Below are positions 48,535 to 64,000 of a DNA stretch of 64,000 nt, in pieces. Position 1 is the first letter of the stretch, and every line of letters starts with the position of its first letter. A model generated the notes under the pieces. The model ran no database searches, was not told the DNA's origin, and saw only the letters and a program-made list of their open reading frames with translations. This DNA comes from Emcibacter sp. SYSU 3D8 (lineage in GTDB: Bacteria; Pseudomonadota; Alphaproteobacteria; SMXS01): positions 434,001 through 498,000 of the forward strand of contig NZ_JBBYXK010000001.1 of the NCBI RefSeq assembly GCF_039655875.1, read 5' to 3'. Both the position numbers and the translations under genes were made by a program.

Positions 48535-49659
48535 ATGGACCTGTCCTACTCCGATGAACAGATCATGCTGCGCGACAGCGCCGAGCGCTTCGTCGACGCC
48601 AATTGCGGCGCCGACAATCTCCGCAAGATGCGCGCCTCCGAAGAAGGCTTCAGCCGCGATTACTGGAAGCAGATGGCCGAACTCGGCTGGCTGGCGCTGC
48701 CCTTCACCGAGGACCAGGGCGGGCTGGACGGCACCGCCGTCGACACCAATGTGCTGATGGAAGCCTTCGGCCGCGGCTTGCTGCTCGAGCCCTATTTGAC
48801 CACCGTGGTCATGGGCGGCGGTGCGCTGAAGGCCGCCGGCGGCGCCGACGACCTGATCGGCCAGATCATCGAAGGCAGCTTGCTGCTGGCGGTGGCCTAT
48901 GCCGAACCGCAGGCCCGCTTCGACCTGTTCGACGTTGCCACCACCGCCCGCAAGGACGGCAATGGCTGGGTTATCGACGGGCACAAGGCCGTCGTGCTGC
49001 ACGGCGACAGCGCCGACAAGATCATCGTCTCGGCCCGCACCTCGGGCGATCGCCGCGACAGGAGCGGGATCAGCCTGTTCATCATCGACCGCGGTGCCTC
49101 CGGCCTGGAGCGCCGCGCCTATCCGACCGTCGATGGATCGCGCGCCGCCGAGCTGTTCCTCAACAGCGTCCAGGTCGGTCCGGACGCGCTGCTGGGCGAA
49201 GAAGACCAGGGCCTCGCCATCCTCGAGAAGGTCTCCGACAATGCCATTACAGCGCTGTGCGCCGAGGCCGTCGGCGCCATGAAGGTGCTGCTCGACACCA
49301 CGGTCGAATATACCAAGACCCGCGAGCAGTTCGGCCAGCCGATCGCCAAGTTCCAGGTGCTGCGCCATCGCATGGCCGACATGATGATGGAATACGAGCA
49401 GGCCAAGTCGATGGCCCTCGTCGCCGCCCTCAAGGTCGACAGCGAAGATCCGATCGAGCGCCGCAAGGCGGTCTCGGGCGCCAAGGTCCAGATCGGCAAG
49501 AGCGGCCGGTTCGTCGGCCAGCAGGCCGTACAGCTTCACGGCGGCATGGGCATGACCGACGAATTGTCGGTGGGCCACTATTTCAAGCGGCTGACCATGA
49601 TCGACATTCTGTTCGGGAATGTGGATCATCACCTGAAGCAGTTCAGCGCCGCGGCCTGA
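48535..49659 (+). CDS. acyl-CoA dehydrogenase, small subunit of a heteromeric pair
   Basis: FAD-dependent acyl-CoA dehydrogenase of 374 aa; forms an alpha-beta double bond in an acyl-CoA. It starts MDLSYSDEQIMLRDSAERF and has LGWLALPFTEDQGG, ELFLNSVQVGPDALLG and AVQLHGGMGMTDELSVGHYF. The usual YEGT region with the catalytic Glu is not recognisable. With the next gene it resembles the two-subunit dehydrogenases (PimD/PimC-like, or FadE pairs of steroid degradation). It is divergent from phoR and 25 nt before its partner. Confidence 0.87.
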   Translation: MDLSYSDEQIMLRDSAERFVDANCGADNLRKMRASEEGFSRDYWKQMAELGWLALPFTEDQGGLDGTAVDTNVLMEAFGRGLLLEPYLTTVVMGGGALKAAGGADDLIGQIIEGSLLLAVAYAEPQARFDLFDVATTARKDGNGWVIDGHKAVVLHGDSADKIIVSARTSGDRRDRSGISLFIIDRGASGLERRAYPTVDGSRAAELFLNSVQVGPDALLGEEDQGLAILEKVSDNAITALCAEAVGAMKVLLDTTVEYTKTREQFGQPIAKFQVLRHRMADMMMEYEQAKSMALVAALKVDSEDPIERRKAVSGAKVQIGKSGRFVGQQAVQLHGGMGMTDELSVGHYFKRLTMIDILFGNVDHHLKQFSAAA

Positions 49660-49684
49660 GTACGGAAGAAAACGGGGATAGACC

Positions 49685-50881
49685 ATGGACCTGTCGTTCA
49701 CGCCCGACGAGATTGCCTTCCAGAACGAAGTGCGGGCATGGATGGCGGACAATTTCCCCGCCGACCTGCGCACCAAGGTCGAGGCCGGCGAGAAGCTGTA
49801 CAAGCCCGACCTGCTGCGCTGGCAGAAGATCCTGGCCGCCAAGGGCTGGATCGCGCCGGCATGGCCCGTCGAATATGGCGGGCCCGGCTGGACGCCTACC
49901 CAGCGCTATATCTATGCCAACGAGATGGCGCTGGCCGGCGCACCCGACTTGCCTGCCTTCGGGCTGAAAATGGTCGGCCCGGTGATCTACACCTATGGCA
50001 ACGAGGCGCAGAAGGCGCATTTCCTGCCGCGCATCCTCAGCGGCGAGGATTGGTGGTGTCAGGGATATTCCGAGCCGGGTTCGGGCTCGGACCTGGCCTC
50101 GCTCAAGACCAAGGCGGTCAGCGACGGCGACGATTACATCGTCAACGGCTCGAAGATCTGGACCACCGGCGCCCACGATGCCGACTGGATTTTCTGCCTC
50201 GTGCGCACCGACGACACCGGCAAGAAGCAGGAAGGCATTTCCTTCCTGCTGATCGACATGAAGACGCCCGGCATCGAAGTCAGCCCGCTGATCATCATCA
50301 ACGGCGACCACACGGTGAACCAGGTGTTCTTTACCGACGTGCGCGCCCCGAAGAAGAATTTGATCGGCAAGGAAAACGAGGGCTGGACCTACGCCAAGTT
50401 CCTGCTCGTCAACGAGCGCAATGGCATCGCCCAGGTGGGCCACAAGAAGCACACGCTGCGCCGCATCCGCAAACTCGCCGACAAAACCGACATGAACGGC
50501 GGCAAGCTGGCCGATGAGGCCGGTTACCAACGCAGGCTGGCCGAGACCGAAGTGGCGCTGATGGCGCTGGAATATTCCGAACTGCGGTTCCTGTCCGGCC
50601 AGAAGACCGAACATGCGCCGGGCACCGAGGCCAACATGATGAAGGTGGCCGCGACCCAACTGCAGCAGAGCATGTCCGAGCTGTTCATCGAAATCGCGGG
50701 CTATTACAGCTTTCCCTATGACGGCTTCCGCGACACGAAAGGCTCCAACGAACCGCCTGTCGGGCCGACCGAGGCCGGCGGCGCCATGTTCGACTTCCTC
50801 TATGGGCGCGCCGCGACCATCTACGGTGGCTCCAACGAGATCCAGCGCGACGTCATCGCCAAGGTGCTGCTGAGCATCTGA
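49685..50881 (+). CDS. acyl-CoA dehydrogenase, large subunit of a heteromeric pair
   Basis: 398-aa partner of the preceding gene. It starts MDLSFTPDEIAFQNEVRAW; FAD-binding segments WCQGYSEPGSGSDLASL and KIWTTGAHDADW; substrate loop HTVNQVFFTDVRAPKKNLIG; C-terminal IYGGSNEIQRDVIAKVLL. Where most acyl-CoA dehydrogenases have the catalytic Glu in YEGT, this one has YGGS, so the base is probably placed elsewhere or supplied differently, as in other heteromeric members. The substrate is likely a bulky or dicarboxylic acyl-CoA by analogy only. Confidence 0.88.
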   Translation: MDLSFTPDEIAFQNEVRAWMADNFPADLRTKVEAGEKLYKPDLLRWQKILAAKGWIAPAWPVEYGGPGWTPTQRYIYANEMALAGAPDLPAFGLKMVGPVIYTYGNEAQKAHFLPRILSGEDWWCQGYSEPGSGSDLASLKTKAVSDGDDYIVNGSKIWTTGAHDADWIFCLVRTDDTGKKQEGISFLLIDMKTPGIEVSPLIIINGDHTVNQVFFTDVRAPKKNLIGKENEGWTYAKFLLVNERNGIAQVGHKKHTLRRIRKLADKTDMNGGKLADEAGYQRRLAETEVALMALEYSELRFLSGQKTEHAPGTEANMMKVAATQLQQSMSELFIEIAGYYSFPYDGFRDTKGSNEPPVGPTEAGGAMFDFLYGRAATIYGGSNEIQRDVIAKVLLSI

Positions 50882-50909
50882 GGCGAATGCCGTCGGAATT
50901 GGGGGCGCC

Positions 50910-53105
50910 TTGAAAACGGACCGGACGCCGGGCCTGCTGATTTCCGTGGTCTATACCTCGGCCATTTTCCTCAGCGCCGTGCTGATCTTCTGGCTCGAGC
51001 CCATGTTGCCCAAGGCCATCCTGCCGCTGATGGGCGGGACGCCGGCCACCTGGGTGACGGCGCTGATGTTCTATCAGGCCATCCTGTTGCTCGGGTACAC
51101 CTACTGCTATGTGCTGACCCGCTGGGCGCCGTACCGCGTGCAGGCCGCCGTGCACGTGGCGCTGCTCGCGCTCGCGGCGGTGGCATTGCCGCCCGGGCTG
51201 CCCGGCATGGAAGCCGGCACCGCCTCGCCCGTGCTGCAGGTGCTGTTCATGCTGACGGTGGGCGCCGGGTTGCCACTGTTGGCCCTGTCGGCCACCGCGC
51301 CCCTGGCCCAGCACTGGTTCTCGCGCACCGGCCATCGCAACGCGCACGATCCATATTTCCTCTACGCCGCGAGCAATGTGGGCGGCCTCGGCGCGCTGCT
51401 TGCCTATCCGGTGCTGATCGAGCCCCATATAGGGCTGATCGAGCAGGCCCGGCTGTGGACCATCGGATGCGCCGTGTTCGCGGTGGTCATCGGCGGCTGT
51501 ATCGTCCTGGGACGCCCGGTGAAGCCGGCGGCGCCAGCCGCCGGGGCGACGGATATTGCGGCAGCGCCCCCTGCCCGCCGCGCTGGCCAGCGCTGGATGT
51601 GGCTCCTCCTGGCCGCCGTACCGTCAAGCCTGCTGTCAGGCACCACCACCCGCATCACCACCGACATCGCCGCCGGGCCACTGTTCTGGGTGGTGCCGCT
51701 GGCGCTCTATCTGCTGACCTTCGTGCTGGCCTTCGCCCGGTGGCGCATCCTGCCCATGCGACTCGTGCTGATGCTGCAGCCTGTGGCGCTGGCGCCGTTG
51801 ATCATCGTCATGTTCGGCGGTGAGCAACTGATCCGCGCATGGGACATGGTCGCGGCGACGGTCGTCCTGCTGTTCCTGTCCGCCTATATCTGCCACGCCC
51901 GCCTGGCCGACAGCCGCCCCGGTCCCGAGCGCTCGAGCGAATTCTACCTGATGATCGCGCTGGGCGGCCTCCTCGGCGGCGCATTCAATGCGGTGGTTGC
52001 GCCCAATTTGTTCATCGGCGTCACCGAATATCCGCTGGCGCTGGTGCTGGCGGTCGCGCTGCGCCCCATGCAGAGTCCGGGCCGCATCCGCTGGGGCCTG
52101 GACGTGGCGATTCCGGTCGCTGCCGGCGCCATCGCAATTGCCGTCCTGCTGCAAACCCCGCCGGACCACGTCCGCATGGTGACCGGAATCATCGGGCTCG
52201 TATTCGCGGTGGGTCTGGTCGCCCTGGCGGGGAACCCGGTCCGGTTCGCCATCGGCCTCGCCGCCGCTTTCCTGCTCAGTACCGCGCCTCGGCTGGCCGA
52301 GCCCCCACTCGATCAGCAACGCAACTTCTTCGGCGTGGTCAAGGTGCTCTATGACGCACCCCATGACATGACCCTGATGGTGAACGGCTCGACCTCCCAT
52401 GGCGGCCAGCTCCGCGCGCCGGACAAGCGCCGCGTGCTGACCAGCTATTACGGCGCGCGCGGCCCCTATGGCGACGTCATCGCCGTGCGCACCGCCCAGG
52501 GACGCGCCCGCGACATCGCCGCCATCGGCCTGGGCACCGGCACCATCGCCTGCTCAGGCCCGCCGGAGGCCCGCTGGACGTTCTTCGAGATCAACCCGGT
52601 CGTGGTCGAGATGGCGCGCAACCCGCAGTTCTTCTCGTTCCTCGCCGACTGCCAGCCCGATGCGCGCGTGCTGACCGGCGACGGCCGCCTGCTGCTGGCC
52701 CGGGAAAACCAGCGCTTCGATCTGATCGTGCTGGATGCCTTCAGTTCCGACGCCATTCCCATGCACCTGCTGACCCTGGAAGCGTTCGAGATCTATTTCA
52801 GCAAGCTGAAGCCCGACGGCATGGTGGTGATCAATATCTCGAACAAGTTCGTCAACCTGAACCCAGTGCTGGCAGCACTCGCCGAGCGTCTTGGATTCAC
52901 AGTGCTCGGCCGCTTCGACGAGGTCACCGACCGGATCATCCATTCCAGCCGTTGGGCGGTGATGGCCCGCGACCCGGCAACCCTGGCGCCGGTGCTGGCG
53001 CGCCCCGGATGGCAGGTGCTCACGCCCGACCGCGACCTGCTCTGGACCGATGACAAGTCCGGCCTGTTCGAGCTGCTCAGCGTCCAGCCGGATTTGAACA
53101 AGTGA
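50910..53105 (+). CDS. fused MFS-like membrane/spermidine synthase-like protein
   Basis: A 731-aa fusion. The first ~460 residues have a dozen or so hydrophobic helices (ending around RFAIGLAAAFLLSTAP); the C-terminal ~270 are a spermidine-synthase/methyltransferase fold: IGLGTGTIAC (SAM/dcSAM-binding Gly motif), FFEINPVVVEMARN, LTGDGRLLLA and DLIVLDAFSSDAIPMHLLT. NCBI calls such proteins fused MFS/spermidine synthase; no function is proved. The frame begins at TTG 50910 after a G-rich stretch, so the first residues are uncertain. Its TGA overlaps the binding-protein GTG as GTGA. Confidence 0.8.
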   Translation: MKTDRTPGLLISVVYTSAIFLSAVLIFWLEPMLPKAILPLMGGTPATWVTALMFYQAILLLGYTYCYVLTRWAPYRVQAAVHVALLALAAVALPPGLPGMEAGTASPVLQVLFMLTVGAGLPLLALSATAPLAQHWFSRTGHRNAHDPYFLYAASNVGGLGALLAYPVLIEPHIGLIEQARLWTIGCAVFAVVIGGCIVLGRPVKPAAPAAGATDIAAAPPARRAGQRWMWLLLAAVPSSLLSGTTTRITTDIAAGPLFWVVPLALYLLTFVLAFARWRILPMRLVLMLQPVALAPLIIVMFGGEQLIRAWDMVAATVVLLFLSAYICHARLADSRPGPERSSEFYLMIALGGLLGGAFNAVVAPNLFIGVTEYPLALVLAVALRPMQSPGRIRWGLDVAIPVAAGAIAIAVLLQTPPDHVRMVTGIIGLVFAVGLVALAGNPVRFAIGLAAAFLLSTAPRLAEPPLDQQRNFFGVVKVLYDAPHDMTLMVNGSTSHGGQLRAPDKRRVLTSYYGARGPYGDVIAVRTAQGRARDIAAIGLGTGTIACSGPPEARWTFFEINPVVVEMARNPQFFSFLADCQPDARVLTGDGRLLLARENQRFDLIVLDAFSSDAIPMHLLTLEAFEIYFSKLKPDGMVVINISNKFVNLNPVLAALAERLGFTVLGRFDEVTDRIIHSSRWAVMARDPATLAPVLARPGWQVLTPDRDLLWTDDKSGLFELLSVQPDLNK

Positions 53106-54121
53106 CCGCGCCAGACCGCAGAACCGTGCTGCGCGGCGGCATGGCTGCCATGGCCGCCGCCGCGATTCCGGGCCTCGCCGTCGCCCAGCCGCTCGCCGCC
53201 GCCGCCTCGGAAAAGCTGGTGCTGCACCTGGAGTGGCTGCCCCAGGCGGAATTCGCCGGCTATCTGGTCGCCAGGGAACTGGGGCTGTTCAGCAAACGCG
53301 GGCTCGACGTGACCATTCTTCCCGGCGGCCCGGACCATCCGGCCCTGGCCGAGGTGGCGACCGGCGCCGCGCATATCGGCATCGGGCCGTCGAGCCTGTT
53401 GTTCGTCGCCCGCGCCAAGTCGGTGCCGGTGAAGATCATCGCCCTGCCCCTGCAGGACAGCATTTTCCGCTTCGTGCTCAAGGCCCGAAACCGCATCCTC
53501 TCGCTGCGCCAGCTTGCGGGCCAGCCCATCGGGCTACGGCTCGGCGGCGACGAGGCCGAGTTTGCCGCCATGGCTGCCAAGCAGGGCATGACCCTGGCCG
53601 ATTTCAAGGTCGTCAGGCAGGATCAATCCCTTTCCGGCTTCCTGGAGGACCGCTATGTCCTGAGCCAGGTGACGACCATCAATGAACTGATCCTGCTGCG
53701 CAACGAGGGCTATCCGGAATCGGAACTGCAGATCCTCAGCCCCGCGGAATATGGTGTCGCCATGCCGTCGGACTGCCTGTTCACCACCGACACGATGCTG
53801 GAGACCCGCCGGGACACCCTGGTCCGCTTCATCGACGGCGCCCGCGATGGGTGGCGGACCGCCTTTGCCGACAAGGAAGCCGCGGTGCAATTGCTGGTTT
53901 CACGCTATCCCGAACTGGATGCCGGCCACCAGATGGATCAGCTGAAGGCCATGGAACCGCTGGTATCCGGACCGGACGGCGGCGTGCCCTTCGGCCGGAT
54001 CGACACGGTGGCCATGGAACGGATGCAGCAGGAGATGGTCACCGCGAGATTGCTGCCGGGTGTCCTGTTCCTCAATGATGTGGTCGACGCCAGCCTGCTG
54101 CGGGACCTGCCCGAAGGCTAG
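53102..54121 (+). CDS. NMT1/SsuA-type ABC substrate-binding protein, Tat exported
   Basis: A 339-aa periplasmic binding protein. It starts at GTG 53102, coupled (GTGA) to the previous gene. The N-terminus has a twin-arginine motif DRRTVLRGG followed by an Ala-rich region and cleavage near AVAQP. The mature part is NMT1/THI5-like (LHLEWLPQAEFAGYLVARELGLF, VTILPGGPDHP, GIGPSSLLFVARA). Relatives bind sulfonates, taurine, thiamine precursors or aromatic ligands; which it binds is unknown. No permease or ATPase gene accompanies it. The stop overlaps the aldolase stop in CTAG. Confidence 0.85.
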   Translation: MTAPDRRTVLRGGMAAMAAAAIPGLAVAQPLAAAASEKLVLHLEWLPQAEFAGYLVARELGLFSKRGLDVTILPGGPDHPALAEVATGAAHIGIGPSSLLFVARAKSVPVKIIALPLQDSIFRFVLKARNRILSLRQLAGQPIGLRLGGDEAEFAAMAAKQGMTLADFKVVRQDQSLSGFLEDRYVLSQVTTINELILLRNEGYPESELQILSPAEYGVAMPSDCLFTTDTMLETRRDTLVRFIDGARDGWRTAFADKEAAVQLLVSRYPELDAGHQMDQLKAMEPLVSGPDGGVPFGRIDTVAMERMQQEMVTARLLPGVLFLNDVVDASLLRDLPEG

Positions 54122-54873
54122 TCGTTCATCTCCCGGACCAGATCGAAGCCGGCACGGACCAGCCCCATGTCGGAGGTCACGGTCACCAGGTCGAAGCCCT
54201 TGGCGATCATCTGCTTCGAGTAGTCGACGCCGTTATTGACGATGGCGGTGCGCAGGCCATGCCGCCTGGCGGTCTCCAGGATTCGGTCGATTGCGTCCAT
54301 GACGACCGGATCGGACTGGTTGAGGCGCGGCTCGCCCCCCAGCGACAGGCCCAGGTCGGACGGGCCGATCAGCAGCGCGTCGAGGCCCGGGGTGGCGCAG
54401 ATGCCCTCGAGGTTATCCAGCGACTCCTGCGTCTCGATCATGGCGAAGGTCAGCAGCACGTCGTTCGCCCACTTCATGTAGTCGCCGCCCGCATACAGGA
54501 TCGCCCGGTTCGGACCGACGCTGCGATATCCGTCCGGAACGTAACGGCAGGCGCCGACGAAGCGCTCGCACTCCTCGCGCGTGTTGATCATCGGACAGAT
54601 CACGCCGTAGGCGCCGGCATCCAGCGCCTTCATGATCACGCCGGGCTCGTTCCACGGCACCCGGACCAGCGGCGTGACCGGCGATGCCGACACCGCCGCC
54701 AGCATGGCATGCATCTCGCTTACCCCGATCAGGCCATGCTGCATGTCGATGGTCAGCGAATCCCAACCCTGCGCCGCCATGGCCTCGGCCACATAGGCGC
54801 TGTCCGAGGCGATCCAGCAATTGGTCGCGGCCTCTCCCCGCGCCCATATGGCCTTCAGCCGGTTCTCCCGCAT
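54118..54873 (-). CDS. HpcH/HpaI-type class II aldolase
   Basis: Metal-dependent pyruvate aldolase of 251 aa that cleaves 4-hydroxy-2-oxo acids. The key residues are His46 in IDMQHG, Arg71 in LVRVPW, metal ligands Glu147 in MIETQE and Asp173 in LIGPSDLGLSLG, as in HpaI and 2-dehydro-3-deoxyglucarate aldolase. ATG 54873 is used; a GTG at 54879 overlaps the dehydrogenase stop as GTGA. It follows the zinc alcohol dehydrogenase and P450 on the minus strand and would release pyruvate from a ring-cleavage or similar product. Confidence 0.88.
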   Translation of the reverse strand: MRENRLKAIWARGEAATNCWIASDSAYVAEAMAAQGWDSLTIDMQHGLIGVSEMHAMLAAVSASPVTPLVRVPWNEPGVIMKALDAGAYGVICPMINTREECERFVGACRYVPDGYRSVGPNRAILYAGGDYMKWANDVLLTFAMIETQESLDNLEGICATPGLDALLIGPSDLGLSLGGEPRLNQSDPVVMDAIDRILETARRHGLRTAIVNNGVDYSKQMIAKGFDLVTVTSDMGLVRAGFDLVREMND

Positions 54874-54875
54874 GG

Positions 54876-55895
54876 TCACGGCTCCAGCAATATCTTGCAC
54901 TGGCTGGTGGGCTTTCGCAGCGCCTCGAACGCGGCGGGGAACTGCTCGAAGGTGAGCACGTCCGTCACCAGTCCCTCGACGTCGATCCGGCCCGCGGCGA
55001 GCATGTCGACGACAAACTGAAAGTCGGCCTTGTCCTGGGCAATGACAAAGTTCATCGACAATTCCTTGGCCATGGCGAAGGCCGGCATGAAAGTGTCTGG
55101 CTGGGCGCAGAAGCCGACGACGATGATCTCGCCGCCATAGGGCGCCAGTTCGGTGCATTTGGCGATCATGCCCGGCACGCCGACGCATTCCATGATCAAT
55201 TCGGGCTCGGCGCCGGTCAGTTCACGGAACTGGGCGCCCACGTCGCCGGTCGCGTCGACCAGGCCGGTGGCGCCGTAGCGCAGGGCCATCTGGGCCCGGC
55301 CCGGATCCAGTTCGCTGACGATGACATGGCGCGCGCCGAAGAAGCTGCACCATAGCGCCGTGGTCAAGCCGATAGGTCCGGCGCCGATCACCAGTACATT
55401 CTTGCCCGCCAGCCCCTTCCTGATGGCGCGCACACCGTGCAGCGAAACCGCCAGCGGCTCGACCAGCGCCCCGGATTTCCAGCTTACCGGATCGGGCAGC
55501 GCAACGGCCGAGTTCAGATGCACGCGTGTGTATTCGGCAAAGCCGCCGCCGACGTCGCCGAGACCGATGATCAGCTTGGTGGCGCATTGCCACGGCTTGC
55601 CGAGCAGGCAGGCGGCGCACCTGCCGCAGCCGATAAACGGCAGCGAGGTCAGCCGATCGCCTTCCTTCCAGCCGGCCGGCGTGTCCTTGCCGAGCGCGAC
55701 GATCTCGCCGCAGAATTCGTGTCCCATGACCATGCCACCTGCCTTGCGGCCGTGATCCTCGGTGGCGTGCAGGTCGGTCCCGCAGACGCCGCAATGGCGC
55801 ACGCGGATGATCGCCTCGCCGGCCTCGGGCGACGGATCGGGAATGGTCTCGATGGCAAGCGGCTTGCCTGCCTCGCGGAATACGGCGGCCTTCAA
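54876..55895 (-). CDS. zinc-dependent alcohol dehydrogenase (MDR family)
   Basis: Medium-chain dehydrogenase/reductase of 339 aa. Catalytic zinc site Cys38, His59, Glu60 (GVCGTD, GHE); structural zinc cysteines 90, 93, 96 and 104; Rossmann motif GAGPIGL. It resembles threonine/sorbitol-type rather than class III enzymes. The start is a TTG at 55895, whose translation begins MKAAVF, the normal N-terminus of the family. The P450 stop lies 4 nt upstream; substrate unknown. Confidence 0.87.
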   Translation of the reverse strand: MKAAVFREAGKPLAIETIPDPSPEAGEAIIRVRHCGVCGTDLHATEDHGRKAGGMVMGHEFCGEIVALGKDTPAGWKEGDRLTSLPFIGCGRCAACLLGKPWQCATKLIIGLGDVGGGFAEYTRVHLNSAVALPDPVSWKSGALVEPLAVSLHGVRAIRKGLAGKNVLVIGAGPIGLTTALWCSFFGARHVIVSELDPGRAQMALRYGATGLVDATGDVGAQFRELTGAEPELIMECVGVPGMIAKCTELAPYGGEIIVVGFCAQPDTFMPAFAMAKELSMNFVIAQDKADFQFVVDMLAAGRIDVEGLVTDVLTFEQFPAAFEALRKPTSQCKILLEP

Positions 55896-55899: not shown

Positions 55900-57150
55900 C
55901 TATCCCTTCCTGTCGAACGTGATCCAGAGTTCCTTCAACCCGCGCAGGCACAGATGCGGATGGTGCTCGAAACTGTTGCGGGCGGGGGCGTAGGCCAGAT
56001 TGTCCATGCGCGCCAGGATCGCCTCGAACGAGGCGATCATCTCGTAGCGGGCAAGCTGGGCGCCCAGGCAATGATGGATGCCGGCGCCGAACGCCAGATG
56101 GGCGCCGGCGTTTGAGCGTTCGACGTCGAGCTGGTGTGGACAGCCGAACTTGGCCGCGTCCCGGTTCGCCGCCGCATAACGGAGCATGACCCGCGCGCCT
56201 TTCGGGATCGCGTAGCCGCCCAGTTCCGTATCCTGCTTCACCACCCGGAACAGGCCCTGCACCGCGGATTCGAGCCGCAGGGTTTCCTCGACGAAGGTGG
56301 GAATCCGCGCCGGGTTCTCGCGCAGCAGCCGTTGCTGGTCTGGATTGTCGATCAGCAGGGTCATGCCGGCGGCAATGGAGTTGGTGGTGGTCTCGTTGCC
56401 GGCTACCAGCACCTGCGAGATGATCGACAGCAGTTCGCCATTATCGAGCGGCTTGCCATCGTCGTCGCGGACCTCGAGCAGCGCCGACAGCAGGTCGTCG
56501 CGGGGGCGTTCGCGGCGCTCGTCCAGCGCGTTGACGAAGTATTTCTGGAATTCCAGCAACTTGGTGGCGCTGTCGATCCACTCGTCGTCGGTCAGCATCA
56601 GGCCAAGCGGCGCCACGGACGCGTCCGACCATATCTTGAATTTCGGCGCGTCATCGCGCGGCACGCCAAGCTGGTCGGCGATGACATAGAGCGGCACGGG
56701 CACCGCGAATTCGTGGATCAGCTCGACCTCGCCGCGATCGATGAAGGCATCGATCAGCATATTGGCGATCTCGTCCATATAGGGCTTCATGGCCCGGACC
56801 CGCTTGGGCGTGAACGCGTAATCCACCATCTTGCGATAGCGCGTGTGGCTGGGCGGATCGTTGGTCACCATGGTGTTGACCTTGGGCCAGCCACGCTTCT
56901 CGATCTCCCTCACCTCGGGCGGCGGGGCGCGCATTTCGGCCGGCGCCTGGCTGCCGATGTTGGAGAACACATCGGTGTTGCGGATCGCTTCCATCAGCAG
57001 ATCGTAGCGGCTGACGATATAAACCTTCAGGTTGGGGTCGTAATAGACCGGCGCCTGTTCCCGCAAAACGTCGTAATAATCGTAGGGGTTCTCCTGAACC
57101 TCGACGTTGGCAAGGGACCGGTCGCCCGGCGCGCCCGCTATGGCATCCAT
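55900..57150 (-). CDS. cytochrome P450
   Basis: Soluble bacterial P450 of 416 aa that monooxygenates a hydrophobic substrate with electrons from a ferredoxin. I-helix AGNETTTNS with the acid-alcohol-type oxygen-activation residues, the ExxR pair in EETLRLE, and heme-thiolate Cys361 in FGAGIHHCLGAQLAR. It heads a minus-strand operon P450, alcohol dehydrogenase, aldolase, with GGGGAGAAG 8 nt before the ATG. No own ferredoxin is adjacent; the ferredoxin at 61352 is Rieske type. Subfamily not assigned. Confidence 0.93.
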   Translation of the reverse strand: MDAIAGAPGDRSLANVEVQENPYDYYDVLREQAPVYYDPNLKVYIVSRYDLLMEAIRNTDVFSNIGSQAPAEMRAPPPEVREIEKRGWPKVNTMVTNDPPSHTRYRKMVDYAFTPKRVRAMKPYMDEIANMLIDAFIDRGEVELIHEFAVPVPLYVIADQLGVPRDDAPKFKIWSDASVAPLGLMLTDDEWIDSATKLLEFQKYFVNALDERRERPRDDLLSALLEVRDDDGKPLDNGELLSIISQVLVAGNETTTNSIAAGMTLLIDNPDQQRLLRENPARIPTFVEETLRLESAVQGLFRVVKQDTELGGYAIPKGARVMLRYAAANRDAAKFGCPHQLDVERSNAGAHLAFGAGIHHCLGAQLARYEMIASFEAILARMDNLAYAPARNSFEHHPHLCLRGLKELWITFDRKG

Positions 57151-57275: not shown

Positions 57276-58370
57276 ATGAAGATCACCGCTGCCATCGCGC
57301 AAGGCCCCGGCCAGCCCTTCGCCATCGAGCAGATCGACCTCGATGATCCGCGGTCCGACGAGGTGCTGGTGCGGCTGGTTGCCACGGGCGTATGCCACAC
57401 CGACATGTATTTCCGCGACCTGATGCCCCTGCCCGCTGTGCTGGGCCACGAAGGCGCGGGCGTGGTCGAGGCGGTCGGTGCGGATGTACGCAAGGTACGG
57501 CCCGGCGATCACGTGGTGCTGTCCTATGGCTCGTGCGGCGTGTGCCCCAGCTGCGACGCCGGTTCTCCGTATTATTGCCACCACTTCGATGCTCATAACG
57601 CCAGCGGTGCCCGGCCGGACGGCACGCCGACCCTGACCCGTAACGGCGAGCCCCTGTTCGGCAACTTCTTCAGCCAGTCGTCCTTCGCCAGCCACGCGCT
57701 CGCCAACCAGGCCAACGTGGTCAAGGTGCGCCAGGAAGCGCCGCTGGAAATGCTGGGGCCGCTGGGCTGCGGCGTACAGACCGGCGCGGGTTCGGTGATG
57801 AACGGGCTGGAGCCGCTGCCCGGCGAGGCGCTGGTGATCTTCGGGGCCGGCACGGTTGGCCTGTCGGCGATCATGGCGGCCAACCTGATCGGCTGCGAGC
57901 CGATCGTCGCCGTCGACCCGGTCGCCGCCCGCCGCGACATGGCGCTGAGCCTTGGCGCCCATCACGCCATCGACCCCACGTCGACCGATCCGGTGGCCGA
58001 AATCATGCGGCTGACCGGCGCCGGTGCGCTGCATACCCTGGAGTGCACCGGTATTCCTGACGTGTTCGAGCAGGCCGTGTCCTGCCTGGCGCCGCGCGGT
58101 ACGTGCGGCTTAATCGGTGCGCCGCCACCCGGCAGCAAAGCCTCGATCCGGCTCGACAAATTGCTGTCGAAGGGCATCCGGATCCGCGGCCTGATCGAGG
58201 GCGAGAGCCAGATCGACGCGTTCATCCCGCATCTGGTCGAGCTGTTCCAGGACGGCCTGTTGCCCATCGACCGGCTGGTCACCTTCTACGATCTGGACCA
58301 GATCAACGACGCTATCGCCGACAGCCTGGAAGGCCGCACGATCAAGCCGGTCCTGCGGATGCCGCGCTAG
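57276..58370 (+). CDS. zinc-dependent alcohol dehydrogenase (class III/aryl-alcohol-like)
   Basis: MDR enzyme of 364 aa, NAD(P)-dependent. Catalytic zinc Cys40, His58, Glu59 (GVCHTD, GHEGAG); structural cysteines 87, 90, 93 and 101; Rossmann motif GAGTVGLS; the 90-130 insert GARPDGTPTLTRNGEPLFG is typical of class III and aryl-alcohol dehydrogenases. It is a different subtype from the enzyme at 54876. It is divergent from the P450 with 125 bp between; an inverted repeat GCCAATG/CATTGGC (57184-57190, 57241-57247) lies in that gap. Confidence 0.88.
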   Translation: MKITAAIAQGPGQPFAIEQIDLDDPRSDEVLVRLVATGVCHTDMYFRDLMPLPAVLGHEGAGVVEAVGADVRKVRPGDHVVLSYGSCGVCPSCDAGSPYYCHHFDAHNASGARPDGTPTLTRNGEPLFGNFFSQSSFASHALANQANVVKVRQEAPLEMLGPLGCGVQTGAGSVMNGLEPLPGEALVIFGAGTVGLSAIMAANLIGCEPIVAVDPVAARRDMALSLGAHHAIDPTSTDPVAEIMRLTGAGALHTLECTGIPDVFEQAVSCLAPRGTCGLIGAPPPGSKASIRLDKLLSKGIRIRGLIEGESQIDAFIPHLVELFQDGLLPIDRLVTFYDLDQINDAIADSLEGRTIKPVLRMPR

Positions 58371-58691
58371 AGCAGCGGCTCGTCGAGCGGCAGCGGCAAT
58401 TGCGTCACCGGCTCACCCTGCTCGGGGGCCAGCAGAAAACATGTCAAAATGGCCATTCGCGAGCGTTTCCGTGCGACCGATAACCCCGAAGCGCGAGCTT
58501 CAGATTGGACAGGCGGTGTAATTCATTAACTGGCGCGCTGATATCCGCCCCCGGTTCGCTACCCGCGAATCTTGCCATATCGCCACCATCTGGAGGATCG
58601 CGACCGGATGCCGCAAACCCGGCGCCGTCATTGCCGGTGGCTCTGCGGTCCGAGGTTTTCGGCTGCGCTGCAACTTTGCCCTTGCCTGGTC
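58371..58691. other. gene-free stretch after the alcohol dehydrogenase
   Basis: 321 bp between convergent genes. I see no convincing terminator; a 29-codon minus-strand frame (58367-58456) is too short to support. The rest shows nothing distinctive. Confidence 0.4.
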
Positions 58692-59063
58692 CTACTTCGT
58701 CGACATTGTCAGGGTGTAGAAGAAGTTGCCCTTCCCGTTGGAAGGCGCTCCGACCATCGTTCCATCCTGTATGATGATCAAGGTCGTGCTGTCCGAGTAG
58801 ACCACGCCGTTCAAGGGATCGGTGCCGTTGGTATCATTGCCGCCGCCGGCAAGAAGCTTGCCAGGGCCGCCGTCATTCCGGAAACCGATGATCTTGCCGT
58901 TTCCGGTTTCATGCACTTTCAGAATGGCGATCACCTCGCCCGCGACCACATTGTCCATGTGAGCGTCGGAAAGGAGCATCGCGCCCTGCGACTGTTCTGC
59001 GAAGGCTGACGATCCGAACAGGCAGATGCCTGCGGCAGCCAGAATCAAGCTCTTGATAGTCAT
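58692..59063 (-). CDS. small secreted protein with LSDAHMDNVVAG motif
   Basis: A 123-aa protein. A Sec signal peptide (MTIKSLILAAAGICLFGSSA, cleavage after AFA) is followed at once by LSDAHMDNVVAGE, the L-x2-x2-MD-x-V-x-AG pattern seen in many small exported proteins and reminiscent of double-glycine leaders. Then come Gly/Asn-rich segments (GPGKLLAGGGNDTNGTDP) and an amphipathic strand-rich C-terminus. I do not recognise a family. It lies alone in AT-rich DNA unlike its neighbours, with a perfect inverted repeat in its promoter region. Confidence 0.75.
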   Translation of the reverse strand: MTIKSLILAAAGICLFGSSAFAEQSQGAMLLSDAHMDNVVAGEVIAILKVHETGNGKIIGFRNDGGPGKLLAGGGNDTNGTDPLNGVVYSDSTTLIIIQDGTMVGAPSNGKGNFFYTLTMSTK

Positions 59064-59401
59064 TGATATGCCCTGCCCATAAGAAAGAATGCCCGTCATA
59101 GTCGAACGTCTCTTAGCCCACGTTCGACGCAGAAAAAGGCTAGCATCGAAGTATTATCGGGTCCATGACATATGGTAACTGGTTACGGTATATTCATCAC
59201 TTTGTTGTCATCAAGAAACACACGCTAATAAATTAATTAAAAACCGTAATAAAAATACACCTCAAAGTAGTATAGCGCACCAGATCATGGTTGAGTTATT
59301 CGGATACTCCGCAGGGGACCGGCAAAACATACGGACGACTCGGCAAAGACGTCGCGGGTCCGCCGGGTTTCACGTCGAGGCTGGCTGCCTGGTGAGTGTG
59401 A
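59064..59401. other. AT-rich intergenic island
   Basis: 338 bp, with about 59160-59290 strongly AT-rich (ATTAATTAAAAACCGTAATA and similar), in sharp contrast to its GC-rich surroundings. It carries the promoter side of the small secreted gene and the 3' side of the CMD-family gene. There is no gene I can support. It looks like acquired DNA or a silencing/regulatory patch. Confidence 0.5.
59101..59128. promoter_or_regulatory. perfect 9-bp inverted repeat upstream of the small secreted gene
   Basis: GTCGAACGT (59101-59109) and ACGTTCGAC (59120-59128) with a 10-nt gap, 38 bp before the ATG at 59063. Half-site centres are 19 bp apart, close to two helical turns, as for a dimeric operator. Confidence 0.5.
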
Positions 59402-59974
59402 TTACTCCGCCGCGCGCTGGGGCACGAACGGGCAGTATTCCTCCTTCGCCACAAGGTCGAGCACGAAGGCCATCTTGTTCATGCCGCCCAGGATGGCGCC
59501 GACCATGGACAGCTCGACAATGTCGCCGTCGCTGAAATGCTCCTTGAGGCGTGCATAGAGCGCCGGGGTCAGCGAGCCGCCCATATTGGTCAGGGCAAGC
59601 TGCTCGGCCAGCGCGATGGCGGCCTTGTCGGCGCCCGAGAACGGGCCGTTCTCGTAATCCTCCATGGCGTCGAGTTCGGCCTCGGTCAGGCCGGCCTCCT
59701 TGGAGGATGCGCGGTTGTTCAGGTTGCAATAATGGCAACCATGGATCAGCGACAGCCGGTAGCGCACCAGTTCCTTGTAGCGGCGCGGCACATCGCCTTC
59801 GAAGAACAGTTCCTTGTAGAAGTGCTGGCCGAACATCTTCGACGCCTTGGGGGAATTGGCGAATACCTCCAGAATGGTGGTGTCTTCGCAGATCGCCTTG
59901 GCGTGGTCCCAGCCGGCCTGCTGCTCAGGCGACAATTGCTCGCGCGGCACCCGGTTCATCAGCGTATTGGTCAT
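59402..59974 (-). CDS. carboxymuconolactone decarboxylase/AhpD-like protein
   Basis: A 190-aa CMD-fold protein. HGCHYCNLNN holds the CxxC pair common in AhpD-like peroxidase members; helix-rich, about residues 40-170. It may act as a decarboxylase, lactonase or thiol peroxidase; the pair of cysteines favours redox. ATG 59974 has GGGGAG 8 nt upstream. It is divergent from the epoxide-hydrolase-like gene. Confidence 0.82.
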   Translation of the reverse strand: MTNTLMNRVPREQLSPEQQAGWDHAKAICEDTTILEVFANSPKASKMFGQHFYKELFFEGDVPRRYKELVRYRLSLIHGCHYCNLNNRASSKEAGLTEAELDAMEDYENGPFSGADKAAIALAEQLALTNMGGSLTPALYARLKEHFSDGDIVELSMVGAILGGMNKMAFVLDLVAKEEYCPFVPQRAAE

Positions 59975-60071
59975 GTCCCGTCTCCCCTGACGAATGAACG
60001 AAATCTTCAAACTTATGACCACAGAACATATGCTAAGAAGGCAACGGATTGCAATTCATGGGGAGGATCGA

Positions 60072-60437
60072 ATGAGCAACAGCCAGATCGTCAAGAACTT
60101 CATCGCCGCCTGGAACGAGAACGACATCGACAAGGCCTGCGACATGATGTCCGAGGACATTTTCTACCACAACATCCCCATGGAACCGGTGAAGGGCCGC
60201 GAGGCGTCCCGCGCCATGCTGAAGGCCATGGGCCCGCTGACCGACGTGAACTGGGAGCTGCTCGCCATCGCCGAGAACGGCGAGGTGGTGATGACCGAAC
60301 GGGTCGACCGCATGACCATGGGCGGCAAGAAGGTCGCCATCCCGCTGATGGGCATCTTCCGGATCAGGAACGGCGAGATCTACGAGTGGAAGGACTATTT
60401 CGACCTGGGCGACTTCCAGCGCCAGATGGCGGGGTGA
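60072..60437 (+). CDS. limonene-1,2-epoxide hydrolase-like protein
   Basis: A 121-aa cone-shaped SnoaL/NTF2-fold protein. The limonene-epoxide-hydrolase catalytic set can be placed: Arg77 and Asp79 in TERVDRM and Asp108 in EWKDYFD. LEHs open epoxides by direct attack of water. GGGAGGA precedes the ATG 4 nt upstream. It is expected to hydrolyse an epoxide made by the P450 or Rieske enzymes nearby, but that link is inference. It is the only plus-strand gene between the CMD and ThuA genes. Confidence 0.85.
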   Translation: MSNSQIVKNFIAAWNENDIDKACDMMSEDIFYHNIPMEPVKGREASRAMLKAMGPLTDVNWELLAIAENGEVVMTERVDRMTMGGKKVAIPLMGIFRIRNGEIYEWKDYFDLGDFQRQMAG

Positions 60438-60491
60438 TCAACTCCTTATTCGTCATTCCCGCGCACGCGGAAATGACGATATGGCTGATGC

Positions 60492-61250
60492 TTACGCCAG
60501 ATCCCCGGCGCAGTAGGCGATTCCCCGGCGCAGGATTTCGTAGAACACGGGCTGATCCCAGGCGCAGCGATCGACGGTGGGCCATTCGTCCATGATCGGG
60601 ATCATGTCGTATTTGCCGCGGCAATGGCCGAGGGCGCAGTACACCACTTCGCCGGCGCCCTGCTGCTTGGTGTAGAGCATGTAATGGCGTCCGGTGCCGC
60701 CGGTCCAGTCGCCCTCGATGAAGCCGTCGCAGGTGCCGTGCCAGTGGGTTTCCAGCAGCACCCGGTTGTCGCCGTAATATTCGGCGCAATAGATCTCGTC
60801 GTTGACGGTGAAGGCGTCGATGCCCTTGACCAGCGGATGGTTCTCCTCGCCGGGCGTGACCGTCACCTGGAAGTCCTGCAAAGCCGGATGGGCGATGAAC
60901 TGGCTGCCGATCATCTCCATGAAGCGCGGCGCCTCGCGCGGCGTCGCCACGCCGCCCTCGACGAAACGCAGCACCGAGTTGGTGCCGTGCAGCGCGAACC
61001 ATTTACCGCCGCGCTGGAGGAACTGGTGCAGCGCCTCGGTCTGGTCTTCGGTGGGCTGCACGTCGCAGGTATAGGTGATCAGCACGTCACAGGCGGCGAT
61101 GCTGGCGGTGTCGGCATAGTCCACGGACACGGTCGCCAGGTAGCGCTCGTCCTCGGCCAGCAGCTTCAGGAGCTCGACCCGCGCGAAATTGATGTCGTGA
61201 TATTTGCCGGACGCCACGAGATGGAACCGGACTGGGCCTTTCTTGGCCAT
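60492..61250 (-). CDS. ThuA-like protein
   Basis: A 252-aa ThuA-family protein with a class I glutamine amidotransferase-like fold. It has ADTASIAACDVLITYT, RGGKWFALHGTNSV, HPLVKGIDAF and GRHYMLYTKQ. ThuA was linked to trehalose/sugar utilisation; the enzymatic role is unclear, and this copy next to Rieske oxygenase genes may have a catabolic job. GGGGAG precedes ATG 61250. It is the last gene of the Rieske operon on the minus strand, 101 nt after the ferredoxin. Confidence 0.82.
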   Translation of the reverse strand: MAKKGPVRFHLVASGKYHDINFARVELLKLLAEDERYLATVSVDYADTASIAACDVLITYTCDVQPTEDQTEALHQFLQRGGKWFALHGTNSVLRFVEGGVATPREAPRFMEMIGSQFIAHPALQDFQVTVTPGEENHPLVKGIDAFTVNDEIYCAEYYGDNRVLLETHWHGTCDGFIEGDWTGGTGRHYMLYTKQQGAGEVVYCALGHCRGKYDMIPIMDEWPTVDRCAWDQPVFYEILRRGIAYCAGDLA

Positions 61251-61351
61251 GCGCGCTCTCCCCTTTTGCAGCCGCCGTCCCAGAGGCGGTGATCCGACTT
61301 TAGCCGCGGCGCGTTCCGCGCGGCCAGTGATTTCTCGGGTTTGTCCGCAGC

Positions 61352-61741
61352 CTAGAAGAAGCCGCTGGCGCCCGGGATGGCAAACGGGTTGCCGGGCTTC
61401 TTCTTCGGCTCGACGAGCTGGACCAGAACGTCCTCGCCCTCGACCTTCACCGGATAAACGGTAATCGGCAGCACGGCCGGCGCGCTCATGGCCTTGCCGG
61501 TCTCCAGGTCGAAATTGGCGCCGTGATGCGGGCACACGATCTTGCCCGCGCGGATACGGCCGCCTTCCATGGACTTCTTCTCGTGCGAGCACTGGTTCTC
61601 GATGGCCTTGAAGCCGCCATGGGGCATGTGGATGACCAGCACGTTGCGGCCTTCCAGCGGAACACACTTGGTCTTGCCCGGCTCGACGTCCGTGGTCTTG
61701 GCCACGAAGCGGAATGGAATCTCGGCGGCTTGTTCGGTCAT
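61352..61741 (-). CDS. Rieske [2Fe-2S] ferredoxin
   Basis: A 129-aa Rieske ferredoxin. Cluster ligands Cys51-His53 (CSH) and Cys70-His73 (CPHH). It most likely passes electrons from a reductase (not in the window) to the Rieske oxygenase encoded 8 nt upstream. The C-terminus has a Lys/Pro-rich extension (EPKKKPGNPF). ATG 61741. Confidence 0.93.
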   Translation of the reverse strand: MTEQAAEIPFRFVAKTTDVEPGKTKCVPLEGRNVLVIHMPHGGFKAIENQCSHEKKSMEGGRIRAGKIVCPHHGANFDLETGKAMSAPAVLPITVYPVKVEGEDVLVQLVEPKKKPGNPFAIPGASGFF

Positions 61742-61749
61742 GATCTGCC

Positions 61750-63054
61750 TTACGCGTCGTTGGCGTAGTCACCGTTTATATAGCCCATCAACGCCTTGTG
61801 CATATGGCGGATGCGGCGCTCCTGATGGGAAATCCACAGGCCCTTGAACGCCGACGAATTATTGCCCCGCTGCACATGCGGCAGGTTGACCGAGTCCTGG
61901 TCGAGGACAAGGCCGAGCGAACGCTCGCCGTGATTGACATGCTCGTGGTCGGGCAGCGGCGGGCGCGGCTGGCCCTTCTTGATCCGCGCGAACATCCAGA
62001 CGTCGTAATACATCTTGTTGGGATCGGATTCGTGGGGCCGCTGGCGGAACATCATCATCCGGTCGGCGAAGGTGTTCAGCGTCAGGTTGGGGAAGATGTT
62101 GTAGTGGTAGTCGTCGGTCAGCTGGTCGTCGTTCAGCTCGGAATAGTCGACGCCCAGCGCTTCCTGGTTCTCGCGCTTGAACACCTGGATGGCCCGGCGC
62201 GCCTCGGAGACGCGGCCGCGGAACTCTTCCGGATTCATGCCCAGCGCCGTCATCTTGCTGGCGATGATCTCGGGCACCTCGTCCAGCTCCTCGCCAAGGC
62301 GCGGGCTGTAGGTGTGGAACGGCACCAGATAGCGGTTGTGCTTGTCATAGAGGTCGATCTGCACGTCGACGTCATCGTTGTCGTAGAGCAGTTCCGGATG
62401 GATGCACTGGACATGGTAGACCTCGTTGAACGCGTCCACCGACGTCTTCCAGTTGCAGTCCCAGTTGATGGTGACGTTCATCACCATGGCCATCTTCTCG
62501 AAATGGTACGGGTCCAGGTGTTCGGGAATGATGTTCAGATAATCCAGCAGCGGCTCGGCGTCCGGGTTCATGTTGAACCACACGAAGCCGCCCCATGTAT
62601 CGGTATGGATCGTCTTCAGGCTGAGCTGGTCCTTCGGGCAACCCTGGGTGAAGTCCTGCTCGTCGGGAACGCTGACCAGCCGGCCGGTCAGATCGTATTC
62701 CCAGAAGTGATAGGCGCATTGCAGTGTGCGGGAATTGCCGGTCTTGTCGAACTTGACCTGGTTTCCGCGGTGGTTACAGACGTTGTAGAAGGTCCGCGCC
62801 TTGCCATCCTCGCCGCGCACGATCAGCAGCGATTCAGGGCCGATCTCGGTGGTGATGTAATCGCCGGTCTCGGGAATTTCCTCCTCGCGGCAGCCGATCA
62901 GCCAGGTCTTGGTCCACATGCGCTCCCATTCGAGCTGCATGAACTCCCTGGAGACGTAACGCTCCTTCGGAATGATCGCATTGCCGAGATCGGGCTCGGG
63001 CGCCTTTTCCGCCGGCGTGCCCGTGCTTTGATTGACCCTGATGACCGCGACCAT
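61750..63054 (-). CDS. Rieske non-heme iron oxygenase, alpha subunit
   Basis: Oxygenase component of 434 aa. Rieske ligands Cys93-His95 and Cys113-His116; catalytic iron His214 and His219 in NEVYHVQCIHPE with bridging Asp207; the third Fe ligand is likely an Asp in LDQDSVNLP near 390. The family hydroxylates aromatic rings, sterols or demethylates; the substrate is not readable. GGAG is 7 nt before ATG 63054. A paralogue lies 83 bp upstream. No beta subunit is seen, so it is probably a homomultimer. Confidence 0.93.
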   Translation of the reverse strand: MVAVIRVNQSTGTPAEKAPEPDLGNAIIPKERYVSREFMQLEWERMWTKTWLIGCREEEIPETGDYITTEIGPESLLIVRGEDGKARTFYNVCNHRGNQVKFDKTGNSRTLQCAYHFWEYDLTGRLVSVPDEQDFTQGCPKDQLSLKTIHTDTWGGFVWFNMNPDAEPLLDYLNIIPEHLDPYHFEKMAMVMNVTINWDCNWKTSVDAFNEVYHVQCIHPELLYDNDDVDVQIDLYDKHNRYLVPFHTYSPRLGEELDEVPEIIASKMTALGMNPEEFRGRVSEARRAIQVFKRENQEALGVDYSELNDDQLTDDYHYNIFPNLTLNTFADRMMMFRQRPHESDPNKMYYDVWMFARIKKGQPRPPLPDHEHVNHGERSLGLVLDQDSVNLPHVQRGNNSSAFKGLWISHQERRIRHMHKALMGYINGDYANDA

Positions 63055-63137
63055 TCGAAAACTCCAAATATCTGGCGACGTGTGCCCTTTGTGCCGCCTG
63101 CGGCAGCATCAGGCAACCTCATTCATACACAACTTTT

Positions 63138-64000
63138 TTATATCGCGATATACTTCATCAGTGTTTCATGCATATGCCGGATACGCCGCTCGATATGGCT
63201 GATCCACAGGCCCTGATAGGCAGATGAGTGCATGCCCTTCTGGATGTGCGGCAGATTTACCGAATCCTGGTCCAGCACAAGACCCAGCGACCGGTCACCG
63301 TGTCTGATGTGCTCGTGATCCGGCGCCCGCGGGCGCGTCTCGGCTTTCGTCAGCCGGCGCATGATCGACAGGTCGAAATACATCCGGTTCGGATCGGTCT
63401 CATGCGGCCGCTGGCGGAACATCATCAGCCGGTCGGCGAAGATGTTCATCGTGATGTTGGGAAAGACGAAATAGTGATAATCGTCCGACAACTGGTCGTC
63501 GCCGAGGCGGTTGTAGTCATAGCCCAACTCCTCCGCCGTCTCGCGCTTGTGGACCTGGAAGGCGCGGCGCACTGCGTCCACCCTGCCCCGGAACGCGGCC
63601 GGCTCCATGCCCAGGGCCAGCATGTCGGCGGCCATGATGTCGGGCACCTCCTGCAATTCGCCCACCCTCGGCGCGGGCCGCTGGAACGGGATCAGGTAGC
63701 GGCTGTGCCTGTCATAAAGGTCGATCTGCACATCCACGTCGTCGTGCAGATAGGACAGTTCCGGATGGATGCAGGCCGTGTGGTAATATTCGTTGAATGC
63801 ATCGACCGAGGCCTTCCAGTTGCAGTCCCAGTCGACGGTGAGGTTCATCACCATCGCCATCTTCCCGAACTCGTAGGGATCGAGGTGTTCGGGAATGATG
63901 CCCAGATAGTCGCCCAGCGGCTCGGAATCCGGGTTCAGGTTGAACCAGACGAAACCACCCCAGGTATCGGTCTTCACGGCCTTCAGGCTGAGTTGATCTT
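63138..64000 (-). CDS. second Rieske oxygenase alpha subunit (5' end outside window)
   Basis: The C-terminal two thirds of a paralogue of the preceding oxygenase, open through the window edge (reading DQLSLKAVKTDTWGGF). The catalytic iron pair is in NEYYHTACIHPE; RMYFD, PDHEHIRHGDRSLGLVLDQD and the end IRHMHETLMKY match the first copy closely. The Rieske domain lies beyond the window. The two genes are tandem on the same strand and clearly diverged, so likely with different substrates rather than a recent duplicate. Confidence 0.92.
   Translation of the reverse strand, partial: DQLSLKAVKTDTWGGFVWFNLNPDSEPLGDYLGIIPEHLDPYEFGKMAMVMNLTVDWDCNWKASVDAFNEYYHTACIHPELSYLHDDVDVQIDLYDRHSRYLIPFQRPAPRVGELQEVPDIMAADMLALGMEPAAFRGRVDAVRRAFQVHKRETAEELGYDYNRLGDDQLSDDYHYFVFPNITMNIFADRLMMFRQRPHETDPNRMYFDLSIMRRLTKAETRPRAPDHEHIRHGDRSLGLVLDQDSVNLPHIQKGMHSSAYQGLWISHIERRIRHMHETLMKYIAI

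Follow-up and report, generated by a model that had tools for sequence, protein, structure and literature searches.

The window, the whole 64,000-nucleotide stretch of Emcibacter sp. SYSU 3D8 DNA that was analysed, ends within a conserved gene cluster of 35 kb for oxygen-dependent degradation, probably of recalcitrant ring-bearing organic compounds, arranged around a Rieske oxygenase/ThuA pairing in this freshwater-type alphaproteobacterium. The cluster spans position 48535 to about 83600 (extended coordinates). The first-pass annotation had placed the island within 15.5 kb; extension past 64 kb revealed further catabolic genes and showed that ~19.6 kb more of the cluster lies beyond the window edge. 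Every gene family named in that annotation was verified with Pfam and NCBIfam profiles. The genes occupy both strands in several short runs.

Two acyl-CoA dehydrogenase (ACAD) genes, separated by 25 bp, begin the cluster on the forward strand. The first (48535–49659, +) encodes a PimD-like small subunit with Pfam ACAD domains, an REQFG motif and a conserved place in the gene order, and scored 433 bits with TIGR03203 (pimD), below the cut-off of 653. The second (49685–50881, +) encodes a PimC-like large subunit scoring 451 bits with TIGR03204 (pimC), below the cut-off of 624. Each protein prefers its own subunit model by far. As in the pimeloyl-CoA dehydrogenase PimCD, neighbouring small and large subunits match the two models over nearly their full length; unlike PimCD, the present pair falls short of both equivalog cut-offs and is set among oxygenases. 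In the PDB, the closest solved relative of the large subunit is 4x28_A, followed by 6wy9 and 6wy8 with the rest far behind, and these entries are steroid side-chain enzymes. Judged by sequence, the pair is classed as a heteromeric dehydrogenase of the PimCD/ChsE type (PMC12543098).

The interval 50910–54121, which had been counted in the island, encodes a fused MFS/spermidine-synthase-like protein and an NMT1-type binding protein; it was rejected as a cluster component and its two genes are read as insertions, being missing between the ACADs and the aldolase in several relatives. A missing pathway gene in the seemingly empty interval 46912–48534 was likewise rejected, since a PAS-HisKA-HATPase histidine kinase is encoded there; this kinase is the left neighbour of the cluster and adjoins pst genes.

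The aldolase (54118–54873, −) belongs to the HpcH/HpaI type (PF03328), and its 144 bits with the HpaI model TIGR02311, against a cut-off of 369, do not identify it as a 4-hydroxy-2-oxoheptanedioate aldolase. It is followed by a zinc-dependent alcohol dehydrogenase (ADH; 54876–55895, −; PF08240 and PF00107) present in all relatives compared, and by the first of two cytochromes P450 in the cluster (55900–57150, −; PF00067), for which searches, including the PDB, singled out no substrate class. A second zinc-dependent ADH (57276–58370, +; PF00107/PF08240) is NDMA-type-like, with 261 bits against the TIGR03989 cut-off of 440. P450s, zinc ADHs and SDRs are broad families that are little informative alone. 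The CMD-family protein (59402–59974, −; PF02627, TIGR01926 below cut-off) looks AhpD-like and has a CHYC (CxxC) motif in its sequence. The limonene-epoxide-hydrolase (LEH) family enzyme (60072–60437, +) scored 84 bits with PF07858 against a cut-off of 24 and, when aligned with the solved LEHs 5aih and 5aif, retains the YHN, ERxD and WxDYFD positions, so that both the family domain and the catalytic positions of limonene-1,2-epoxide hydrolases are present.

The ThuA-family protein (60492–61250, −) is the core of the conserved module. In its longer open frame it scored 65.2 bits with PF06283 (cut-off 33.4; 11-row alignment), and its fold matches ThuA-like 1t0b (Foldseek E 8e-8), which places it in the ThuA domain family. 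Searches against PDB sequences gave no significant match with the single sequence and a marginal one with a profile. The adjacent Rieske ferredoxin (61352–61741, −; PF00355/PF13806), with a CSH...CPHH cluster motif, is the likely electron donor.

Two Rieske alpha subunits had been claimed; there are three in tandem. Alpha 1 lies at 61750–63054 (−), alpha 2 at 63138–64421 (−), cut by the window end at 64000 and backed by its position in the tandem set and by a tree, and alpha 3 outside the window at 64521–65825 (extended coordinates). PF00355 and PF00848 are over cut-off in all three. In an alignment of 13 sequences, C93, H95, C113 and H116 of the Rieske cluster (CxH...CxxH) are invariant, as are E211, H214, H219 and D387; by family precedent the last three form the 2-His-1-carboxylate iron site, with E211 as the bridging position. 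No beta subunit adjoins the alphas, as it would in an alpha-beta ring-hydroxylating dioxygenase: genome-wide, Ring_hydroxyl_B gave three weak matches, of which a single one narrowly exceeded the cut-off and none lay near the cluster. The best NCBIfam model was GbcA (NF058607), which scored 146 bits where 670 are required. The glycine betaine and carnitine monooxygenases GbcA and CntA are also alpha-only Rieske oxygenases, but the present proteins score far below cut-off and sit in a ring or acid catabolism setting. An AlphaFold model of a Rieske alpha was discarded (mean pLDDT 51).

Beyond the window, the extended part encodes an enoyl-CoA hydratase, an aldehyde dehydrogenase, two CoA ligases, the second P450, a CurA-like reductase, an SDR, a second ThuA, an ACAD, another enoyl-CoA hydratase, a luciferase-type monooxygenase and a dienelactone hydrolase. 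No sugar-uptake genes were seen in the cluster, and in this genome it lacks the thiamine-dependent E1/E2 genes.

Scattering of these genes in relatives had been named beforehand as evidence against a common pathway. Nine relatives across three genera (six other genomes of the same genus and three of sister genera) share the gene order, which is stable across both strands while other genes come and go; some members of the family lack the first P450, one ADH or the CMD gene. Because the same order recurs in nine relatives, the clustering is beyond chance, and the assignment to one locus is well supported. The cluster is one evolutionary unit.

The first-pass annotation had singled out the ThuA-ferredoxin-Rieske core as the most unusual part, a view upheld by the co-occurrence search it had proposed and by gene linkage; the Rieske-ThuA core is the strongest part of the observation. 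Among 385 alphaproteobacterial genomes, the Rieske subfamily was found in 15, all of which (15/15) also carry the ThuA subfamily, itself present in 18. Five families, and 8 of 12 plasmid records, have the two genes no more than about 5 kb apart. Both subfamilies are present but unlinked in Croceicoccus, N. resinovorum CP017076, G245 and G096, and the ThuA subfamily occurs without the Rieske subfamily in f116. Neighbourhoods of ThuA, with genes located by six-frame scan, were enriched in Rieske oxygenase, SDR, Rieske ferredoxin, thiamine-dependent E1/E2 and ACAD genes, whereas control regions were not. In distant bacteria, too, Rieske, ThuA and ACAD genes are grouped together, and both the Rieske and the ThuA subfamily are present on a marine Dehalococcoidia contig. 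Beta-oxidation genes form part of similar clusters on plasmids, N. aromaticivorans pNL2 among them; on pNL2, the Rieske-ThuA pair stands with OB-fold, thiolase and ACAD genes. In N. aromaticivorans DSM 12444 the Rieske and ThuA genes are SARO_RS18605 and SARO_RS18610; the Rieske gene ESD82_RS10400 of Paracoccus pantotrophus DSM 2944 is a closer homologue. No paper describing a ThuA-Rieske association was found in the literature searched, which was mostly without subscription papers, and the recurring pairing is apparently undescribed.

We favour, at slightly below even confidence, the reading that the region is one catabolic locus, retained by vertical descent, through which an alicyclic (terpenoid-, steroid- or CRAM-like) carboxylic acid is degraded oxidatively, with beta-oxidation as the last stage. 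That the genes form one pathway is what we infer, together with its substrate class, step order, ThuA reaction and electron partners. The P450s and alpha-only Rieske oxygenases would oxygenate a ring, the Rieske alphas drawing electrons from the adjacent ferredoxin and a reductase encoded elsewhere. An epoxide product would be converted to a diol by the LEH-family enzyme, and the alcohol to a ketone by the zinc ADHs (an SDR in relatives). ThuA may then work on the resulting ketone or ketol and aid C-C or C-O bond breakage. The opened skeleton would be cut or oxidised by the HpcH aldolase and, in relatives, by the thiamine-dependent E1/E2 complex, and the CoA ligases, the heteromeric ACAD, the further ACAD and the enoyl-CoA hydratases would complete beta-oxidation.

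ThuA is known from rhizobial trehalose use (thuAB). The present protein shares the ThuA domain and fold and also stands with dehydrogenase genes; it differs in forming a separate subfamily tied to Rieske oxygenases, in a cluster devoid of visible sugar-uptake genes. A more tentative, rather doubtful proposal is that ThuA has a catalytic part in a ring-degradation module that is started by a Rieske oxygenase and has not been described before, breaking a bond in the ketone produced by oxygenase and dehydrogenase. Such a module would comprise an alpha-only Rieske oxygenase, an SDR, ThuA and often thiamine-dependent E1/E2 and a heteromeric ACAD, and would extend over several orders of Alphaproteobacteria and Chloroflexota.

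A sphingomonad-type steroid/bile-acid locus, in which the ACAD would function as Scd4AB does, the Rieske alphas would hydroxylate steroids and the cluster would serve the sphingomonad side-chain route, is considered unlikely. It is favoured by the steroid side-chain enzymes 4x28 and 6wy8/6wy9 as best solved relatives of the large ACAD subunit, and by N. aromaticivorans F199, which grows on bile salts and carries both the Rieske-ThuA pair and the Hsh3 homologue WP_011906908 on pNL2. On that plasmid, however, the ThuA region is ~128 kb from the Hsh3 gene, and the Rieske gene adjoining ThuA has only 31% identity to alpha 1. The present ACAD pair, moreover, best matches the pimeloyl-CoA dehydrogenase models, and the cluster showed no steroid ring-cleavage genes. 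The accessible text on the Sphingomonadaceae clusters (Sphingobium sp. Chol11, N. aromaticivorans F199 and C. tardaugens; PMC8399759, PMC12175502, PMC12882949) describes large clusters that likewise combine a heteromeric ACAD with a CoA ligase, Rieske oxygenases and SDRs, and makes no mention of ThuA; the present cluster differs also in showing no ring-cleavage genes and in having an ACAD pair closer to PimCD. Side-chain degradation in Sphingomonadaceae is stated to be unknown (PMC8399759).

Degradation of an aromatic, lignin-type compound, with direct attack of the Rieske alphas on aromatic rings, is improbable. The Pfam family and top PDB matches of the alpha are aromatic dioxygenases, and alpha-rich SAR202 genomes have been interpreted as aromatic degraders (PMC6946804). 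The PDB alignments are nonetheless confined to the N-terminal half, a beta subunit is missing near the cluster, no extradiol or intradiol ring-cleavage dioxygenase is among the annotated cluster genes, and the LEH, heteromeric ACAD and CoA ligases better suit alicyclic acids. Equally poor is the case for independent catabolic operons lying side by side with no common pathway: 51 Rieske alphas and ~38 P450s genome-wide make some chance neighbours expected, and both strands, short runs and the non-universal genes fit, but the order kept in three genera and the renewed clustering in distant bacteria oppose it.

If the Rieske-ThuA ring-degradation module is real, it would be a new route for degrading refractory alicyclic organic matter. 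Bacteria carrying alpha-only Rieske oxygenases by the dozen are suspected of turning over refractory organic matter, but their substrates and pathways are guesswork. Culturable strains (of Novosphingobium aromaticivorans, Paracoccus pantotrophus and Niveispirillum) also have the conserved Rieske-ThuA module, so that the question can be tested in the laboratory, and the module supplies a functional setting for the ThuA subfamily. The 51 Rieske alphas of the present genome form an expansion resembling that reported for SAR202, where about 50–60 alpha genes accompany few beta genes per genome (PMC6946804); the present family differs in being alphaproteobacterial and in its ThuA link, which is not reported there (a search of that paper for ThuA gave no match).

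The locus is a cluster of oxidative catabolism genes that includes a recurring module of which no description was found in the literature searched. The host genome (G000; 4.07 Mb in 17 contigs, completeness rated 100%) holds the window at G000:C1:434001-498000. Its class is Alphaproteobacteria, since Niveispirillum lacus belongs to that class too (match coordinates are shared between G245 and G311). A further 44 kb past the window was read, with genes called by codon bias and then annotated; coordinates above 64000 continue past its right end, and genome position equals 434000 plus the coordinate. The cluster spans 48535 to about 83600 in these extended coordinates, and its left flank carries a PAS-HisKA-HATPase kinase and pst genes. 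Domain and family annotation recovered every gene family named in the first-pass annotation, but the two tandem Rieske alphas described there are three: alpha 1 (61750-63054, minus strand), alpha 2 (63138-64421, minus strand), which is split by the window end, and alpha 3 (64521-65825). Beyond them lie an enoyl-CoA hydratase (65871-66716), an aldehyde dehydrogenase (66760-68274) and a RidA-like protein (68496-68885), the latter two assigned from the sequence, two CoA ligases (68941-70506 and 70625-72193), a second P450 (72344-73579), ABM-domain and MAPEG proteins, a CurA-like reductase (74621-75631), an SDR (75777-76541), a second ThuA (77347-78252), a polysaccharide-exporter-type protein, an ACAD (79897-81063), a further enoyl-CoA hydratase (81087-81878), a luciferase-type monooxygenase (81909-82799) and a dienelactone hydrolase (82898-83629). 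A reductase of the kind that the first-pass annotation suggested seeking past 64 kb was not found in the annotated part of the cluster.

Relatives were gathered by name with the ThuA protein as bait and by kinship; in the sample of relatives, the family of G000 is the only one of its order. Gene order across the whole stretch compared was identical in three congeners (G001, G002 and G004; protein identity 77-97%), was kept from the second Rieske gene through the ACAD pair in G006 (75-94%), and was consistent on the short contig of G005. It was likewise preserved in G003 and the sister genera G007, G008 and G009, where it reaches, as far as sequence covers, the second P450, reductase, SDR, second ThuA, ACAD and enoyl-CoA hydratase. 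The genes are thus not scattered in relatives, a possibility raised in the first-pass annotation; their order is kept in G001-G009, which supports a single locus. P450-1, the second zinc ADH and the CMD gene (59402-59974, minus strand) vary among genera, and the aldolase (54118-54873, minus strand) was not seen in G003. The genes at 50910-54121 are absent between the ACADs and the aldolase in G006, G003, G008 and G009; they encode a fused MFS/spermidine-synthase-like protein and an NMT1-type binding protein, and only some relatives have them at this place. Between the ADH and CMD genes (58371-59401), an orphan 135-aa frame (58692-59099, minus strand) has no Pfam match, and G006 has almost no room at the counterpart of this gap.

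Three Rieske alphas are present in the cluster in G000, G001, G002 and G004, two in G003 and G007, and one in G008 and G009. In a tree with middling support at several forks, alpha 1 and alpha 3 separate close to the family's base, and alpha 2 is a copy at the level of the genus. The three share 72-80% pairwise identity and retain the Rieske and iron-site residues; contig C4 carries two more close copies, 78-79% identical to alpha 1. A Rieske ferredoxin adjoins the alphas, and no beta partner was found in the cluster. Their bridging position is Glu (E211); it is Asp in many dioxygenases and Glu in carnitine monooxygenase.

A ThuA profile built from 11 sequences (E <= 1e-30) detected the subfamily in 18 of 385 alphaproteobacterial genomes. 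The Rieske subfamily, searched with the alpha-1 protein (E <= 1e-95), occurred in 15 of the 385, and all 15 were among the 18 ThuA-positive genomes, bearing out, for ThuA and the Rieske alpha, the conserved co-occurrence that had been suggested as a check. Hypergeometric P was 2e-24 when genomes were counted, 2e-15 for genera and about 1e-10 for families (assuming 150 families); these values disregard shared ancestry, and the family-level figure is therefore the safest. By the positions listed, genes of this Rieske subfamily and ThuA lie within about 5 kb of each other in f1, f51 (G165), f13 (G294), f65 (G252) and f49 (G164, G244, G363). They are apart in G245, G096, G057 and G149, in several of which other Rieske genes are close to ThuA.

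Among 12 plasmid records with this Rieske gene at >=52% identity, ThuA lay within about 5 kb in eight (five near-identical Paracoccus, one each from Niveispirillum, Terrarubrum and Sphingobium). The genes are unlinked in two Croceicoccus records (85 kb apart) and in N. resinovorum CP017076 (36 kb), and record PP1Y gave no ThuA match. On the Niveispirillum cyanobacteriorum plasmid (L127), three consecutive tryptophan-halogenase-family genes (20784-25257) adjoin the Rieske-ThuA region and a TonB receptor. A marine Dehalococcoidia contig, probably SAR202-type, encodes a Rieske protein that shares 57.6% identity with alpha 3; about 9 kb away lies a ThuA gene whose product is 48.8% identical to the first ThuA of G000. 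No paper on a Rieske-ThuA link was found in the literature searched; one may nevertheless exist. On pNL2 of N. aromaticivorans, a Rieske gene adjoins ThuA, with ACADs, an OB-fold protein, a thiolase and E1/E2 nearby, and the strain grows on bile salts (PMC12175502). This Rieske protein shares only 31% identity with alpha 1 and therefore represents a different subfamily in the same setting.

Comparison of 30 ThuA regions with 20 control regions showed enrichment of RHO (20 vs 1), SDR (25 vs 3), E2 (17 vs 0), Rieske ferredoxin (12 vs 0) and ACAD (15 vs 2), with Fisher P of 2e-6 to 3e-3, values that are optimistic because the ThuA regions include close relatives. In first-look counts, the median number of Rieske alphas per genome was 20 in ThuA-positive genomes vs 1. 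G000 itself has 51 Rieske alphas, at most one credible beta subunit and about 38 P450s (43 stretches matched, with some genes matched more than once). In first-look counts over 289 class genomes, only members of its family and G060 (family f26; 56 matches in 3.6 Mb, contamination estimate 7%) reached at least 50 alphas. SAR202 genomes show an alpha-rich, beta-poor Rieske pattern, which G000 resembles in its many alphas and few betas (PMC6946804).

The ACAD pair (48535-49659 and 49685-50881, plus strand) matches PimD and PimC over nearly the full length, yet under the equivalog cut-offs. The best solved relative of the large subunit is 4x28, which is mycobacterial ChsE4-ChsE5. The REQFG motif is present in the small subunit and absent from the large, which would fit a shared active site. 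Beta-proteobacterial PimCD homologues serve dicarboxylates and resemble ChsE12 (PMC12543098). The LEH-family enzyme retains the YHN, ERxD and WxDYFD positions of solved LEHs. The first ThuA (60492-61250, minus strand) has a ThuA-like fold (model pLDDT 74; Foldseek match 1t0b, E 8e-8), and its frequent SDR neighbourhood resembles the dehydrogenase-ThuA pairing in trehalose use, an analogy which suggests that it may act on a ketone.

The second ThuA is 22% identical to the first over part of its length; it lies near the first in two families (L086, L088, L091) and adjoins E1/E2 genes in f49. The f49 genomes G057, G164 and G244, of only about 1.4 Mb with some 15-19 Rieske alpha candidates each, carry two ThuA kinds next to Rieske genes. 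Outside the cluster, G000:C1:1-4046 groups counterparts of module genes, namely the end of an SDR, both E1 genes (alpha and beta) and an E2 gene; this set lies at the contig end and is followed by an MmgE/PrpD gene.
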